Shown: positions 7,850 to 39,848 of the stretch, piece after piece
How positions within the stretch are numbered: position 1 is the first letter of the stretch
Layout of the letters: each line of letters opens with the position of its first letter
Assembly: GCA_016936815.1 (NCBI GenBank)
Contig: JAFGXD010000090.1
Coordinates: 1-64,000, forward strand
Length of the DNA stretch: 64,000 nt
Direction of reading: 5' to 3'
From: Bacteroidales bacterium
GTDB taxonomy: Bacteria; Bacteroidota; Bacteroidia; Bacteroidales; GWF2-38-335
The notes under the pieces: generated by a model
Seen by the model: only the letters and a program-made list of their open reading frames with translations
Told to the model about the DNA's origin: nothing
The model's database searches: none
Program-made: the position numbers and the translations under genes

Positions 7850-10800
7850 ATGAAAAAATTATTAGTTCTATTCGCATCTGCTTTATTATTAATCACTAAC
7901 ACAGCAATAGCTCAAATTAGTACAGGCGGTAAACCCGTTAGTTTTGTTTATAAAAATCTTTCCGATAATATTGGGAAAATAGAAATTCCTGCTCCAAATA
8001 TGGAATTAATTTTGCAAGAAGATAACCAAGCAGAAAAAAACGGCAGCTTTTACAAAATTGGTCGCTACATTAATGCTGATATAAATCTTATGGAATCGGG
8101 AACATGGACTGAACTGCCTGATGGTGGAAAAATATTTAGAATTAGTCTGAAATGCGAGGGTGCTGAGGCACTAAATGCTGTTTATTCCGACTTCTATTTG
8201 CCGGAGAATACTGTTTTGTATATTTATAACAAAAACAAAAAACATGTTATTGGAGGTTTTACAGATTTTAACAATAGAGACGACCGTTCTTTTGTACATG
8301 AAATTGTTCAGGGTGATGAAATAACTTTAGAGTATTACCAACCTGCCGGTGTTGATGAAATGCCTTCACTGAACATTGAGCAAATTGGTTACACTTATAG
8401 AAGTTCTCATTTGGATGCATATAAAGACGTGAAAGATTTTGGCGGCTCCGATAATTGTCAGGTTAACGCTAATTGCAGTCCCGAAGGAGATAACTGGCAG
8501 AACCAAAAACGAGGAGCTGTTAGAATTCTTCTAACCGTTGGCACAGGTATGGGATGGTGCTCCGGTTCTGTAATAAATAATACTAATGAGGACTGTACTC
8601 CATACATATTAACAGCAGATCATTGCGGAAACGGAGCTACTGTAGCTAACCTAAATCAATGGATTTTTTACTTTAATTACGAAGCTCCAACATGTTCAAA
8701 CCCGTCTTCAGAAGGCACATTGGCGAATCAATCTATGACCGGATGTGCTCTTATTGCCCATGGCGGCGATGAAGGAGATGCAGGCTCTGATTTTTTTCTT
8801 GTTGAATTGAATGAGGAAATTCCTGATTCTTATCAACCTTATTACAATGGATGGAACAGAGAAGACGTTGCTGCAACCAGTGGCGTTAGTATTCATCATC
8901 CAAGTGGCGATATAAAGAAAATTTCCACTTTTACTTCAACATTGGTAACAGCCTCATGGTCCGGAACATATAATGCCCATTGGAGAGTTACCTGGGCGGC
9001 AACAACTAACGGATATGGTGTTACAGAAGGCGGTTCATCAGGAAGTCCCATTTTTAACCAAGCCGGATTAATTGTTGGAGACCTTACAGGTGGAAGTTCT
9101 TATTGTACAGCAACTTCTTCTCCCGATTTGTACGGAAAATTTTCATACTCATGGGAATCAAACGGAACAACCGATGGTGAAAAACTAAAACCATGGTTAG
9201 ATCCTGCAAATACAGGAGTAATGAGTCTTAACGGAAAAGATTTTTCTACTTGCGGAATAGCCACTATTACTGTTACCGGAACAGCAACTGGAGTTTCTTG
9301 TTGGGGTTACAACGATGGTTCTATTGATATTTCAGCAAGCGGTGGAACACCTCCTTATTCCTATGTTTGGAGTCATGGCCCTACTACAGAAGATGTTTCA
9401 GGACTTCCTGCAGGAAATTACTCTGTTACTGTAACCGATTCAGAAAATGTTACCGGAACACAATCTTTTACTGTTAATGCAGGAACTCCAATTGAAATAG
9501 CAGGAACAATTACAGAAGCTACTGCCGGAGAATGCGATGGAGCTATTGATATTACAGTCACACCGGCAGGATCTTATACTTTCTATTGGTCAAATACAAG
9601 TACAATTGAAGATCTTACCAATTTGTGCCCCGATTCATATTTTGTTGTTGTTACCGATGCCAATGGCTGTGATACCTCTGCAACATTTGTTGTGGTTGAA
9701 GAAGGCGTTGTTATACAAGCCGATTTTTCGGGAACTCCCACTTCAATTATGGTTACTGAATCGGTTAACTTTACAGATGCTTCCTACGGTTCGGTTACAA
9801 GTTGGAACTGGACTTTTACAGGTGGTACTCCCGGAACTTCTACAGACCAAAATCCTACAGGAATTGTTTACAATACTCCCGGATCTTATGCTGTTAGTCT
9901 TGAAGTTTCCGATGGAACAAACAACGATACTGAAACCAAAAACGGTTATATTGTTGTAAGTCCTTCAACAGCTACTGTGCCCGTAGCCGATTTTATGGGA
10001 AATCCTACTACTATTCCGGTTGGTGGCTCGGTAGATTTTACTGATCTTTCCGATAATGTTCCAACTTCATGGGTTTGGGAATTTGAGGGAGCTGATGTTG
10101 GCATTTCAACAGACCAACACCCTGCCGGAATTACTTATAGCACAGCCGGTTTCTACTTCGTAAAACTAAAAGTTACTAACTCTGCAGGAAGCGATTCACT
10201 TACAAAAATAGATTATATTGCTGTTGTTCTAGATACAAGCTCAACAGCTCCAATAATTGACTTTGATGCATCGGTAAGACTTATTTCAACCGGAGAAACA
10301 GTTGATTTTACCGATTTATCGGCTAATTATCCTATTTCTTGGACATGGACTTTTAACGGAGGTACACCAAACTCATCAACCGACCAACATCCTCTAAATA
10401 TTTCCTATAACACACCGGGAATTTATTCTGTAACACTTGCTGCCACAAACTCTGCAGGCACTTCAAGCTTAACAAAAACCGATTATATTGTTGTAACAGA
10501 TTTTCCCACAGCAGAAATTTGCGATACAATAACAAATGTAATGACAGGCGAAGGAATTGGTTATAAATCTCTTACATCAACTTGGGGCTATTTGCCGGGA
10601 CATAACGGAAAGTTTGTTACAGCTTATGCCGATAGAATCGAAAACTATATGTTTAGTCAAGTTACCGGATTTCTTTATCCCGTTCATAAAGCAAATAACG
10701 GAGGTGGAAAAGTTGTTTTTACAGTTTGGAACGAAGATGGAAGTCTTCCCGACAGCATCCTTGGTACTAAAAATGTAAATGTTTCGGCAATTGGAACAAA

Positions 10801-35896: not shown

Positions 35897-36952
35897 TTAA
35901 TCGATTTTAATTAATTTATATTTTTTATTTCCTAAGCCTCTTTTGTAGGCATATTCTATTTGATTTTTTCCTGAAACAGAGTTTATTTTAAGGAAGGTAT
36001 CTTTGCATTTATGGTTTTTATCTACCAGATCATGGCTTGCTTTTTCAATTGCAACAATATCTGTTGAAGCTAATATTCCAATATCATTCATAAAGGGCTT
36101 TCCGGCAGCTTTCACACAATCGCAGTCCTTTGAGATATTAGCCAGCACGTTAATATAAACCACATTTCTGTCTTTAATAATTGCCTCAGCATATTCAACA
36201 AGTCGTTCCAAAAAAACCGGTTTAGAAACCGAAGCCCATGCCACACCAAAAACTCCGTCTTTGCACACTCCAATGCACTGGCCACATCCTATGCATTTGG
36301 CAGAGTCTATTTTAACATTGGGTTCTATTGTTATTGCTCCACCAGGACATTTTTTTTCGCAAGCTCCACATTTGGTACATTTCTCATTTTTTATGGTTGG
36401 AACAGTACTTGTATGTAAGGCCATTTTTCCTGCAATTGAAGCCAGTCCCATGGAAACATTTTTTATTGCACCTCCAAATCCTGCCATTCCGTGACCTTTA
36501 AAATGCGAAAAAATAATGTAAGAATCATATTTATCAAGGCTTCTACCAACTTTCACTTCTTTGTAATGAGTTCCATTTGTCTTTATTGAGTAATCTCCTT
36601 CTGCATCCAGAATATCAATAGGGGCAAAATTAAAGCCGTGATCTTTTGCAAGTTGAATATGACTTTCTGTGTATCTTCTCCTGCTAACATATAAGACATT
36701 TGTTTCAACAAGAGTTCCATTTGTAAGCTTACAAAGTCCTTCTACAAGATTGGGAGACAGGTAGTTTTGATTTCCATCTTCTCCAAAATGTACTTTTATT
36801 GCAATTCTTTTGCCTTTTACTTCCGATTTTATTTTCTCATAAATCTTTAACACCCCTGCGGAGGAAATATCTTTAGTAAAATAAACTTCGGATTTTTGAG
36901 AGTAGCTTAGTAAACCTAAGATAATTAGCAATAATGAGAATAAATATTTCAT
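35897..36952 (-). CDS. DUF362 domain protein with two 4Fe-4S ferredoxin motifs and an N-terminal signal peptide
   Basis: CTKCGACEKKCPGGA and CIGCGQCIGVCKDGV; FSHFKGHGMAGFGGAIKNVSMGLASIAGK; signal-like MKYLFSLLLIILGLLSYSQ at ATG 36952. Confidence 0.88.
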   Translation of the reverse strand: MKYLFSLLLIILGLLSYSQKSEVYFTKDISSAGVLKIYEKIKSEVKGKRIAIKVHFGEDGNQNYLSPNLVEGLCKLTNGTLVETNVLYVSRRRYTESHIQLAKDHGFNFAPIDILDAEGDYSIKTNGTHYKEVKVGRSLDKYDSYIIFSHFKGHGMAGFGGAIKNVSMGLASIAGKMALHTSTVPTIKNEKCTKCGACEKKCPGGAITIEPNVKIDSAKCIGCGQCIGVCKDGVFGVAWASVSKPVFLERLVEYAEAIIKDRNVVYINVLANISKDCDCVKAAGKPFMNDIGILASTDIVAIEKASHDLVDKNHKCKDTFLKINSVSGKNQIEYAYKRGLGNKKYKLIKID

Positions 36953-36962
36953 AAAACAATTA

Positions 36963-37676
36963 TTAAACAACAATTTCCTGAGTTGTGCCTTCGTAATAAT
37001 AGAAAAATCCCGGTTCAATTAAACCTCTTGTTTTTAAATAATTCTGATAAGTTGCATCGAATTCTATTCTGTGGTTAACCGCTTGATCAAAATTCCCGTT
37101 GCAAGCACAAATTAGTTCACAAACCTCTCTAACTGCATTATTACCACCTTCATTTCCTGTTGCATAATCTAGTAATTTCTCGGAAGAAATATAATTATTT
37201 GTCATAGGATTTCCTGCTCTTCTTACATAAAACCTAAGTGCAACTTTGCGAGCAACAGATAAGTCAAGAATATCGTCGAAAACAAAAGCAACTTCAGTAG
37301 GCAATATCCCAAATTTCTTTTCCAAATGCATCAAAGCTTCACTTTTATTTAAAAAGCTGAAATATACAGCGTTATAACTTTCTCTTTTTGCAAGTTTAAT
37401 AGCAGTAGGGTTTTTTTGTCCTGTAATAATTCCAATAAATGGTAGTTTTTTATTCAAAAGCCAAAAGCTAAGTCTAAGCATGTTTAATCCCATGGAATCT
37501 ATTTCTGAAAAAGGACTTCCTGTTTGTTCAGTTTTTTCTCCTGTATTAAAAACTCCATCCCAATCGAAAATTACTGCTTTACATTTTTGTAATTTGGTTT
37601 GAATTTCGGCTCGTGAAGAATAAAACTCACCGCCCTGATTTTCGAATAATTTTTGTAAAAAATCCATTATCCCCAA
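36963..37676 (-). CDS. KdsC-like HAD-superfamily phosphatase
   Basis: AVIFDWDGVFNTG; GIITGQKNPTAIKLAKRE; VAFVFDDILDLSVARKV; C-terminal YATGNEGGNNAVREVCELI resembling KdsC. Confidence 0.82.
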   Translation of the reverse strand: MGIMDFLQKLFENQGGEFYSSRAEIQTKLQKCKAVIFDWDGVFNTGEKTEQTGSPFSEIDSMGLNMLRLSFWLLNKKLPFIGIITGQKNPTAIKLAKRESYNAVYFSFLNKSEALMHLEKKFGILPTEVAFVFDDILDLSVARKVALRFYVRRAGNPMTNNYISSEKLLDYATGNEGGNNAVREVCELICACNGNFDQAVNHRIEFDATYQNYLKTRGLIEPGFFYYYEGTTQEIVV

Positions 37677-38695
37677 AGATTGAGTTTAACAAGATCTTGA
37701 ATATCAATCATTCCCGAAGGTTTTCCGTTGTTTGTAACAATAATATTATCTATGGATTTTTGTTTGAAAATTTTAACAGCTTCGTTCAGTAGAGCTTCGG
37801 AATCAATAGAAACAGGAATATTAAAAGAAAGGTCTTGCATTTTCTTTTCCAAAATAGCCTTGCCGTTTTCCTTCACTTTTCTTCGTAAATCGCCATCAGT
37901 AAAAATTCCTTTCAGGTTACCATTTTCATCAACAATTGTTGCCGCTCCAAATCCTGATTCTGTCATTTTAAGAATTGCATCCAGAACTGTGTTTTCAGGA
38001 TAAATTAAAGGGTTATCAGATGAAATCACATCTTTCACTTTCATAGTCATTAATCTGGTATGCTCGAAAAATTGCTGAGTACCAAGACTGGTAAAGTTGT
38101 TTTCGGTTAATGATTTCATCACTTTCCATGGAACTGTGCATGTATGAACACCAATGTTAAGAGCATTTCTAACATGTTCTGCATGACGAACTGAAGAGAA
38201 CATTATTTTTGTATCGTAACCATATACTTCAACAGCATCAACGCATTGTTCAACAAGACTTAAAGCATCGTGTCCCTGATCCTGAAGGCGACCAACAAGT
38301 GGACAAACGTAAGTTGCTCCGGCTGCCATCGCCATATAGGCTTGTTGAAGAGTATAAACCAAATGGACATTTACCAGAAAATTTTCGTCGGTTAGCATTT
38401 TGCAAGCCCTTACTCCTTCTAACGAAACAGGAATTTTATATACAGTTTTCTTTCTATCTAGTCCCAGTTGGTCGAGCCGTTGAGCTTCTTTATAAATCTC
38501 TTCTGCTGTCTCTCCAAGAGCCTCAATCTGTAAAACAGGCACAATTTCCGACAATTTCATTATCATACCGTCAATATCGGTAATACCATGACGGTGCATA
38601 AAAGTTGGTGTAGTTGTTAGACCGGCCAAAAAGCCAAGTTTTCCAAATGCTTCTTCAATTTCATTAAGGTCAGCAGAATCCAAATATAGTTCCAT
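37667..38695 (-). CDS. Transaldolase/TalC-like domain fused to a KdsD-type CBS pair
   Basis: MELYLDSADLNEIEEAFGKLGFLAGLTTTPTFM; VYKIPVSLEGVRACKML (Schiff-base Lys); AGATYVCPLVGRLQDQGHD; C-terminal CBS LKGIFTDGDLRR and MIDIQDLVKL. Confidence 0.9.
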   Translation of the reverse strand: MELYLDSADLNEIEEAFGKLGFLAGLTTTPTFMHRHGITDIDGMIMKLSEIVPVLQIEALGETAEEIYKEAQRLDQLGLDRKKTVYKIPVSLEGVRACKMLTDENFLVNVHLVYTLQQAYMAMAAGATYVCPLVGRLQDQGHDALSLVEQCVDAVEVYGYDTKIMFSSVRHAEHVRNALNIGVHTCTVPWKVMKSLTENNFTSLGTQQFFEHTRLMTMKVKDVISSDNPLIYPENTVLDAILKMTESGFGAATIVDENGNLKGIFTDGDLRRKVKENGKAILEKKMQDLSFNIPVSIDSEALLNEAVKIFKQKSIDNIIVTNNGKPSGMIDIQDLVKLNLWG

Positions 38696-38708: not shown

Positions 38709-39848
38709 TTAGAGTTTAATTAGTTTTTCAGCAGCTTTTTCAAGGGTTTCGTTGGATTTTGCAAAGCAAAATCTTAATACTTTATTGTCGAAAGTTTTGT
38801 GGTAAAAAACAGAAACAGGTATTGATGCTACTCCAACTTTCTTAGTCAAATATTCAGCAAATGCTATTTCTTTTTCTTCTGAAATTTTACTGTAATCCAA
38901 CAATTGAAAATAGGTTCCACTTGCAGGTTTAAGGCCAAACCTAGAGCCTTTTAACAACTTTGCAAAGTAATCTCTTTTCTCTTGATAAAATTTTTCCAAA
39001 CCTTTGTAATTGTTTTCATTCTGCAAAAATTCAGCAAGTGCATACTGAATAGCAGTATTTACAGAAAATACCAAAAACTGATGAACCTTACGAAATTCAG
39101 CCATTAATACGGCTGGCGCTACACAATATCCCATTTTCCAACCTGTTGCATGAAATGTTTTTCCAAAAGATGAAACAATAAAACTTCTTTCCGCAAGCTT
39201 TGGAAATCTAGCAACCGATTGATGTTCGTAACCATCAAAAAGAATATGTTCGTAAACTTCATCGGAAAGTATTACTATGTTTGAACCTGCTGTTATTTTC
39301 GACAATTTTTCTAAATCGAATGCCGTCATTATCGACCCAGTTGGATTATGAGGACTGTTTATTATTATCATTTTGGTTCTGGAACTAATGGCTTTTTGAA
39401 CTTCATTCCAGTCAATTGAATAATCCGGTTGCTTTAACTGAATAAAAATTGGCCTTCCTCCATTTAACTCTATAGCAGGTAAATAACAGTCGTATGATGG
39501 TTCAAAAACTATTACCTCATCATCTTCCCTAACTATGGAAGTAATTGCTGTATAAATTGCTTGCGTTCCTCCGGCTGTAACTGTTATTTCAGTCTCAGGA
39601 TTGTATTTTAATGAATACAAATTGTAGGTTTTTTCAGCAATTATTTCTCTTAACGGCATTATTCCCGGCATTGGTGCATATTGATTTTTGCCGGCTTTCA
39701 TGTGTTTGTTTATTAGTTCAATAAGCTCTGCAGATACTTCAAAATCAGGAAATCCCTGAGAAAGATTTATTGCATTATACTCCTCTGCCATCTTCGACAT
39801 TATTGTAAAAATGGTCGTCCCTACATTAGGTAATTTCGAGTTTATCAT
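38709..39848 (-). CDS. PLP-dependent aminotransferase, methionine/kynurenine aminotransferase type
   Basis: INLSQGFPDFEV, VTAGGTQAIYTAI, INSPHNPTGS, ILSDEVYEHI, SSFGKTFHATGWKMGY. Confidence 0.92.
   Translation of the reverse strand: MINSKLPNVGTTIFTIMSKMAEEYNAINLSQGFPDFEVSAELIELINKHMKAGKNQYAPMPGIMPLREIIAEKTYNLYSLKYNPETEITVTAGGTQAIYTAITSIVREDDEVIVFEPSYDCYLPAIELNGGRPIFIQLKQPDYSIDWNEVQKAISSRTKMIIINSPHNPTGSIMTAFDLEKLSKITAGSNIVILSDEVYEHILFDGYEHQSVARFPKLAERSFIVSSFGKTFHATGWKMGYCVAPAVLMAEFRKVHQFLVFSVNTAIQYALAEFLQNENNYKGLEKFYQEKRDYFAKLLKGSRFGLKPASGTYFQLLDYSKISEEKEIAFAEYLTKKVGVASIPVSVFYHKTFDNKVLRFCFAKSNETLEKAAEKLIKL

Follow-up and report, generated by a model that had tools for sequence, protein, structure and literature searches.

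We propose that a transaldolase-CBS fusion protein, TAL-CBS, encoded in a Bacteroidales genome, is likely to be a non-orthologous replacement for KdsD, the arabinose-5-phosphate (A5P) isomerase, and would supply A5P by Schiff-base chemistry; both the reaction and the A5P product are inferred and there are no activity data. We assign this role because the gene is linked to Kdo genes and because it and KdsD come close to excluding one another in Kdo-making genomes. Kdo is an essential sugar of lipopolysaccharide whose synthesis starts from A5P. This synthesis is near-universal and drug-targeted in Gram-negative bacteria, and in the usual scheme A5P comes from KdsD/KpsF alone. No link of a transaldolase or a transaldolase-CBS protein to Kdo synthesis was found in the open-access literature that we searched (subscription journals were outside its scope). 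What is new here is probably an unrecognised and recurrent replacement of one step in a known pathway, again with the activity inferred. The relevant features of the window (the whole 64,000-nucleotide stretch of DNA that was analysed) are as follows.

37667-38695, minus strand: TAL-CBS (transaldolase-CBS fusion), 342 aa; open reading frame with an ATG start, Pfam TAL_FSA plus two CBS, AlphaFold model, 78 related loci; proposed A5P-forming enzyme.
38054-38695, minus strand: transaldolase/FSA (beta/alpha)8 barrel, residues 1-214; Pfam 3-214, Foldseek to 1vpx/3r8r.
38609-38611, minus strand: T29, where TTN has a conserved Asn; invariant in 73 homologues.
38435-38437, minus strand: Schiff-base lysine K87 (VYKIPVS); invariant in 73 homologues.
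38363-38365, minus strand: H111, where the barrel Thr is usual; invariant in 73 homologues.
37682-38050, minus strand: KdsD-type CBS pair, residues 216-338; TIGR00393 positions 153-265, 4o9k at 2.1e-16.
37880-37903, minus strand: FTDGDLRR signature, residues 265-272; common to KpsF/KdsD CBS domains.
36963-37667, minus strand: KdsC-like HAD phosphatase (KdsC'), 234 aa from its ATG; TAATG junction with TAL-CBS, HAD catalytic residues conserved.

Pfam assigns the N-terminal part of TAL-CBS to TAL_FSA (PF00923, 4.8e-33, residues 3-214) and the C-terminal part of ~125 residues to CBS (8.1e-19, in two stretches). The CBS half is nearest to KpsF/KdsD: its best family match is TIGR00393 (KpsF/GutQ, 1.1e-19), its best PDB match is 4o9k, the CBS pair of arabinose-5-P isomerase, and TDGDLRR is found alike in this pair and in KpsF proteins. 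No SIS domain was found at the TAL-CBS N-terminus, TIGR00393 matching at positions 153-265 only and Pfam giving TAL_FSA there. TAL-CBS therefore resembles KdsD/KpsF/GutQ (SIS plus two CBS) in its homologous TDGDLRR-containing CBS pair, placed C-terminal to the catalytic domain, and in its apparent pathway position, but it lacks SIS and its catalytic part is a transaldolase-family barrel. Against TIGR00875, the fructose-6-phosphate aldolase equivalog, it scores 159.4 bits, below the cut-off of 245.95. An AlphaFold (AF2) model with an input of 39 homologues gave a pLDDT of 89.1 and a pTM of 0.58, and Foldseek matched the modelled barrel to the TalC-type transaldolases 1vpx/3r8r (TM about 0.9, target-normalised). 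A structure search found no solved structure spanning both the barrel and the CBS pair. The first-pass annotation, made from sequence alone, had described a TalC-type barrel with a Schiff-base lysine followed by two KdsD-type CBS domains, and this description held (Pfam, TIGR00393, 4o9k, K87). On the same strand of the window a methionine-aminotransferase-type PLP enzyme (38709-39848, over the PRK09082 cut-off) ends 13 bp upstream of TAL-CBS.

Alignment of 73 TAL-CBS homologues shows seven residues that never vary: D6, E58, K87 and N109 and, at the phosphate site, R136, S168 and R170. For TalB and FSA, an Arg/Arg/Ser site for phosphate has been described, as has the part that the Ser/Ala position plays at the donor site (PMC3962226); the catalytic Asp (D6 here) removes the proton of the C4 hydroxyl in C-C bond cleavage (PMC7092467). 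Equally invariant are the departures from transaldolases, namely T29 (Asn), H111 (Thr), Y114 (Phe), L133 (Phe) and Q138 (Asp), while residue 131 is Cys or Thr as against Ser/Ala in transaldolase/FSA. The donor-side Asn (TTN) and Thr (NVTLxF) are thus missing from every homologue, with T29 and H111 in their places. Two of these changes, NVTLVFS to NVHLVYT (H111) and GRLDD to GRLQD (Q138), had been picked out in the first-pass annotation and both held. TAL-CBS has in common with TalC-type transaldolase/FSA (MipB) its barrel, the lysine that forms the Schiff base, Asp6 and the Arg/Ser site for phosphate, as well as Glu58, which is found in TalC-type members; it differs by N to T, T to H, F to L, S/A to C and D to Q at class-defining positions and by the fused CBS pair. 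Because the ordinary transaldolase Asn and Thr are replaced at 29 and 111, the activity of TAL-CBS is not to be assumed. The protein probably still acts on a phosphorylated sugar by carbonyl chemistry through a Schiff base, with altered donor or substrate geometry, an activity inferred from its sequence.

Scanning GTDB genome contigs gave at least 80 loci (a lower bound, the seeds being window-specific), and when their gene neighbourhoods were analysed the fusion was present at 78. Identity within the TAL-CBS family is 58-85% across loci, and the taxa are Bacteroidota, Ignavibacteriota/Chlorobiota, Desulfobacterales and SAR324; cultured carriers include Thermonema rossianum, Thermoflexibacter ruber, Raineya orbicola, Runella aurantiaca, and Plebeiobacterium and Labilibacter species. 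Since the fusion is conserved at 78 loci from several phyla, a chance fusion or an assembly artefact is ruled out. A plasmid search did not find the fusion, returning FSA-type barrels only, none of which covered 80% of the query.

The fusion sits among Kdo genes. kdsA is its immediate upstream neighbour at 38 of the 78 loci and KdsC' is present at 47, in 35 of them as the next gene downstream; the other recurrent neighbours are kdsB (24), kdnA (15), kdnB (13) and waaA (8). All copies of kdsA, kdsB and KdsC' lie on the strand of the fusion, the median gap being 30 bp between kdsA and TAL-CBS and 15 bp between TAL-CBS and KdsC'. Neighbour identities were confirmed on representatives: KdsA exceeds the NF003543 cut-off and KdsB that of TIGR00466, and the best matches of WaaA are WaaA families, yet its scores are below their cut-offs. 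The neighbouring KdnA matches 5k8b (1.8e-138), and the KdnB homologue of the source genome matches 5k8c (2.3e-131). KdnB and KdnA convert Kdo to its 8-amino form (Kdo8N). Homologues of the Kdo8N cluster kdnA/kdnB (Shewanella; 5k8b, 5k8c) thus recur beside TAL-CBS, but those genes act after Kdo has been formed. The gene order in Desulfobacterales is waaA-kdsB-kdsA-fusion-KdsC', and genome G091 has kdnA-kdnB-kdsA-fusion-KdsC'-kdsB together (kdn and kdsB identified by eye). In Thermoflexibacter ruber (L005) the gene before TAL-CBS resembles a KDPG/KHG aldolase, as judged by eye, and ends 174 bp upstream of position 8001.

The KdsC-like phosphatase that the first-pass annotation placed next to the fusion was confirmed, whereas the 10-bp overlap it gave depends on the start codon. 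At the TAATG junction the in-frame ATG at 37667 gives an overlap of 1 bp, and only the upstream TTG (open reading frame 36963-37676, minus strand) gives 10 bp. KdsC' falls below the cut-offs of both KdsC equivalogs (PRK09484, 1.1e-15, 57.7 bits versus 208; TIGR01670, 51.9 versus 106.95). Its HAD catalytic residues D38, D40, T85, K111, D134 and D135 (numbered from the TTG start) are conserved in a 46-member alignment. It shares these catalytic residues with the Kdo8P phosphatase KdsC (YrbI family), and many KdsC' members also have the GG-AVREV tail of KdsC, but it differs in forming its own branch, in its sub-equivalog scores and in having SExDSMG in place of the usual substrate segment. A second, canonical KdsC is encoded in the source genome (L136:7858-8388), with a Rossmann-type gene on its upstream side and a UbiA-like gene on its downstream side. 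Given that this ordinary KdsC coexists with it, KdsC' could act on another substrate. That KdsC' is the sole Kdo8P phosphatase does not hold in general either, as 22 of 50 fusion genomes own a canonical KdsC that scores over cut-off. After KdsC' on the same strand of the window (35897-37018) lies a DUF362 protein with two 4Fe-4S motifs, which is not recurrent at related loci.

Canonical KdsD and the fusion are distributed in a nearly exclusive manner. In a survey of 118 Bacteroidota genomes, each at least 90% complete, KdsA was found in 87 and canonical KdsD in 85, and no KdsD-containing genome carried the fusion. KdsD was present in 84 of the 85 genomes that have KdsA without the fusion. Only three genomes had KdsA without KdsD: the source genome and G091, which carry the fusion, and G023, which does not. 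Among 50 fusion genomes, KpsF/KdsD was missing from 48 and KdsA was present in 49, and WaaA was present in all 22 fusion genomes tested, the source genome included. The exclusion of KdsD by the fusion gives a Fisher p of about 2e-33 with kinship ignored; because the genomes are related, we read this value as a gauge of strength and not as a probability. The fusion and KdsD occur together in two of the 50, G133 and G122. The latter, a MAG of 8.8 Mb, has two copies of KdsA: KdsD lies near a canonical one and TAL-CBS near one of the fusion-linked type, KdsA' (contigs 270 and 324; L007, L123), and the MAG may be a mixed bin. G023 (L117) has a canonical KdsA and neither KdsD nor TAL-CBS, a pattern that might reflect an assembly gap or a third source of A5P.

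The source genome itself holds KdsA and WaaA. Searches with SIS and KpsF did not find KdsD in it (the assembly is about 95% complete), its SIS proteins being GlmS, a GmhA-like protein and MurQ; within the limit set by completeness, a KdsD hidden elsewhere in this genome is therefore rejected. Its kdsA is on a different contig from the fusion, with one small gene separating it from the KdnB homologue (L086:1479-3892, contig 145). This proximity raises the possibility of Kdo8N in the lipid A core of the source organism, although KdnA was not located. The genome also contains an ordinary TalC-type transaldolase gene (219 aa of open frame; the stretch given for it crosses 2 TAA codons), and hence TAL-CBS is not its only transaldolase. 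The first-pass annotation had called for a check for a canonical kdsD elsewhere in the genome and for a search for the architecture and its conserved neighbours, and it had counted a canonical kdsD/kdsC pair elsewhere among the findings that would speak against it. kdsD is absent; kdsC is present, which weakens the claim for the phosphatase only; and the search gave the 78 fusion loci, with KdsC' at 47. Its reading of an unusual sugar-phosphate route for a surface ulosonic acid is supported and sharpened to Kdo/Kdo8N by linkage and KdsD exclusion, with the catalytic step still inferred.

A simpler account would be that TAL-CBS is an ordinary transaldolase/FSA with a CBS regulator that lies near LPS genes by coincidence, and that A5P comes from a promiscuous SIS protein, e.g. 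one that is GmhA-like. The fold and Schiff-base residues are transaldolase-like and a GmhA-like SIS protein is encoded in the source genome, in keeping with this account. We regard it as very improbable, however, as the genome already has its ordinary TalC-type gene and the account leaves unexplained the active-site changes, the KdsD-type CBS signature, the operon linkage and the KdsD exclusion.

The KdsA linked to the fusion bears on the identity of the product. KdsA' forms one clade apart from other KdsA (100/100 support). It carries KANRS to KDNRS and PAFLxR to PAYLxM in 39/39 members plus G091, in motifs which we take to be the A5P side of KdsA, and the further changes common to the class are an inserted residue and, close to the THA/I motif, Q to R. 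The KdsA' of the source genome scores over the equivalog cut-offs (NF003543, 351.5 versus 242; TIGR01362, 335.8 versus 314), and it keeps what we take to be the metal Cys and, on the PEP side, the Lys and Arg, as read from its sequence. The changes may represent lineage drift or a changed aldose. Since KdsA' stands apart as a clade and its A5P-side residues are altered, an aldose other than A5P is not excluded, and it is mainly this altered sugar side that lowers our confidence in A5P as the product. In the corresponding rival reading, TAL-CBS and KdsA' would use another aldose phosphate, or a free aldose, and the product would be a Kdo-like ulosonate, or Kdo through another entry. In its favour are the single clade with class-wide A5P-side changes and a preserved PEP side, and the ordinary KdsC that coexists in the source genome. 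Against it, KdsA' is above the Kdo8P-synthase cut-offs and retains the K-x-NRS phosphate motif, almost every fusion genome has no other KdsA beside its single WaaA, and the KdnA/KdnB neighbours imply a Kdo product. We consider this reading unlikely.

If A5P is indeed the product, the favoured chemistry is an FSA-type aldol reaction, in which the enamine of glycolaldehyde (the two-carbon unit) on K87 would add to glyceraldehyde-3-phosphate (G3P) to give A5P. We favour this route because the phosphate site for the three-carbon acceptor is kept while the site for the extra CH2OH of the donor is changed, and it ranks first among the chemistries considered, although we would not put its chances beyond those of a coin toss. 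E. coli FSA turns glycolaldehyde and G3P into A5P and has been used as an 'arabinose 5-phosphate aldolase' (PMC9947464), including in synthetic pathways (PMC9947464; PMC6298115). By Fischer bookkeeping, the stereocentres newly set in F6P-forming aldol chemistry are those of A5P. E. coli FsaA as synthetic A5P aldolase (PMC9947464, citing Garrabou 2009 and Sanchez-Moreno 2012) is of the same family and starts from the same two substrates, but this is a side or engineered activity of a protein that has no CBS pair and is not a Kdo-pathway gene. To our knowledge, the joining of glycolaldehyde and G3P to A5P is not known other than as a side or engineered activity.

No recurrent glycolaldehyde-supplying gene was found among the 78 fusion loci. 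Labilibacter marinus has a second TAL-CBS copy (L054:5117-9020) in a pentose-phosphate setting: TalC-type and transketolase genes immediately precede it, and it stands apart from Kdo genes. Because there is no conserved glycolaldehyde source, and because of this copy beside transketolase and TalC, other chemistries stay in play within the A5P reading. One possibility, which we place behind the aldol route, is a Schiff-base C2 epimerase/isomerase, in which the imine of ribose-5-P on K87 would be inverted at C2 to give A5P, with H111 as acid/base and no net C-C bond making. Ribose-5-P is a central metabolite, which fits with the lack of a conserved supply gene, and H111, new and invariant where Thr is usual, is a candidate acid/base; retro-aldol epimerases exist in other folds (AraD, dihydroneopterin aldolase). 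The invariant D6 argues against it by suggesting that bond-breaking chemistry is retained, and the transaldolase family is not known to contain a C2 epimerase. Also conceivable, and ranked lower still, is transaldolase cleavage of D-glycero-D-ido-octulose-8-P, whose retro-aldol fragment is exactly D-arabinose-5-P by Fischer bookkeeping. Transketolase has been documented to form this octulose phosphate, and LmbR, a transaldolase homologue, also makes an octulose phosphate (PMC5854111); the Labilibacter copy adjoins transketolase and TalC, and no glycolaldehyde source would be needed. However, the octulose route predicts the opposite of the observed active site, in which the donor (dihydroxyacetone) side is changed and the short-acceptor phosphate site kept, and no conserved transketolase was found at the Kdo-linked loci among the 78.

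Returning to A5P supply in place of KdsD, we envisage that TAL-CBS would make A5P through the K87 Schiff base, that A5P would pass to the dedicated KdsA' lineage, and that KdsC' or canonical KdsC would remove the phosphate. KdsB would then activate the sugar and WaaA transfer it to lipid A; in some genomes KdnB/KdnA would turn Kdo into Kdo8N before transfer. The CBS pair may act as a feedback sensor of a late pathway product. Its ligand could be CMP-Kdo or CMP-Kdo8N, a tentative suggestion made by analogy with 4o9k, which contains bound CMP-Kdo; the CBS-mediated regulation proposed at first pass, ligand included, remains an inference. Against the A5P reading stand the A5P-side changes in KdsA', the lack of a recurrent gene for glycolaldehyde supply, the replaced Asn and Thr of the barrel, the two of 50 genomes that also have KdsD and the Labilibacter copy away from Kdo genes. 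A bolder reading, towards which we are more sceptical than not, is of a second, parallel Kdo route in several phyla: a natural Schiff-base enzyme from the transaldolase family would form the pentose phosphate, possibly from glycolaldehyde and G3P, with end-product control through the CBS pair that it has in common with KdsD, and would feed a co-evolved KdsA with a rebuilt sugar site.

Recruitment of the transaldolase fold to a special sugar pathway is seen likewise in LmbR and in the sulfofructose transaldolase BmSF-TAL (8bc3), but the pathways differ and neither is known to be fused to CBS. If our proposal is true, TAL-CBS would offer carbon-conserving synthetic pathways, which now rely on E. 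coli FsaA, a candidate A5P aldolase from nature. It would also explain the missing kdsD in many genomes, and would provide a clear case of the replacement of an enzyme by a different fold with the regulatory domain retained.
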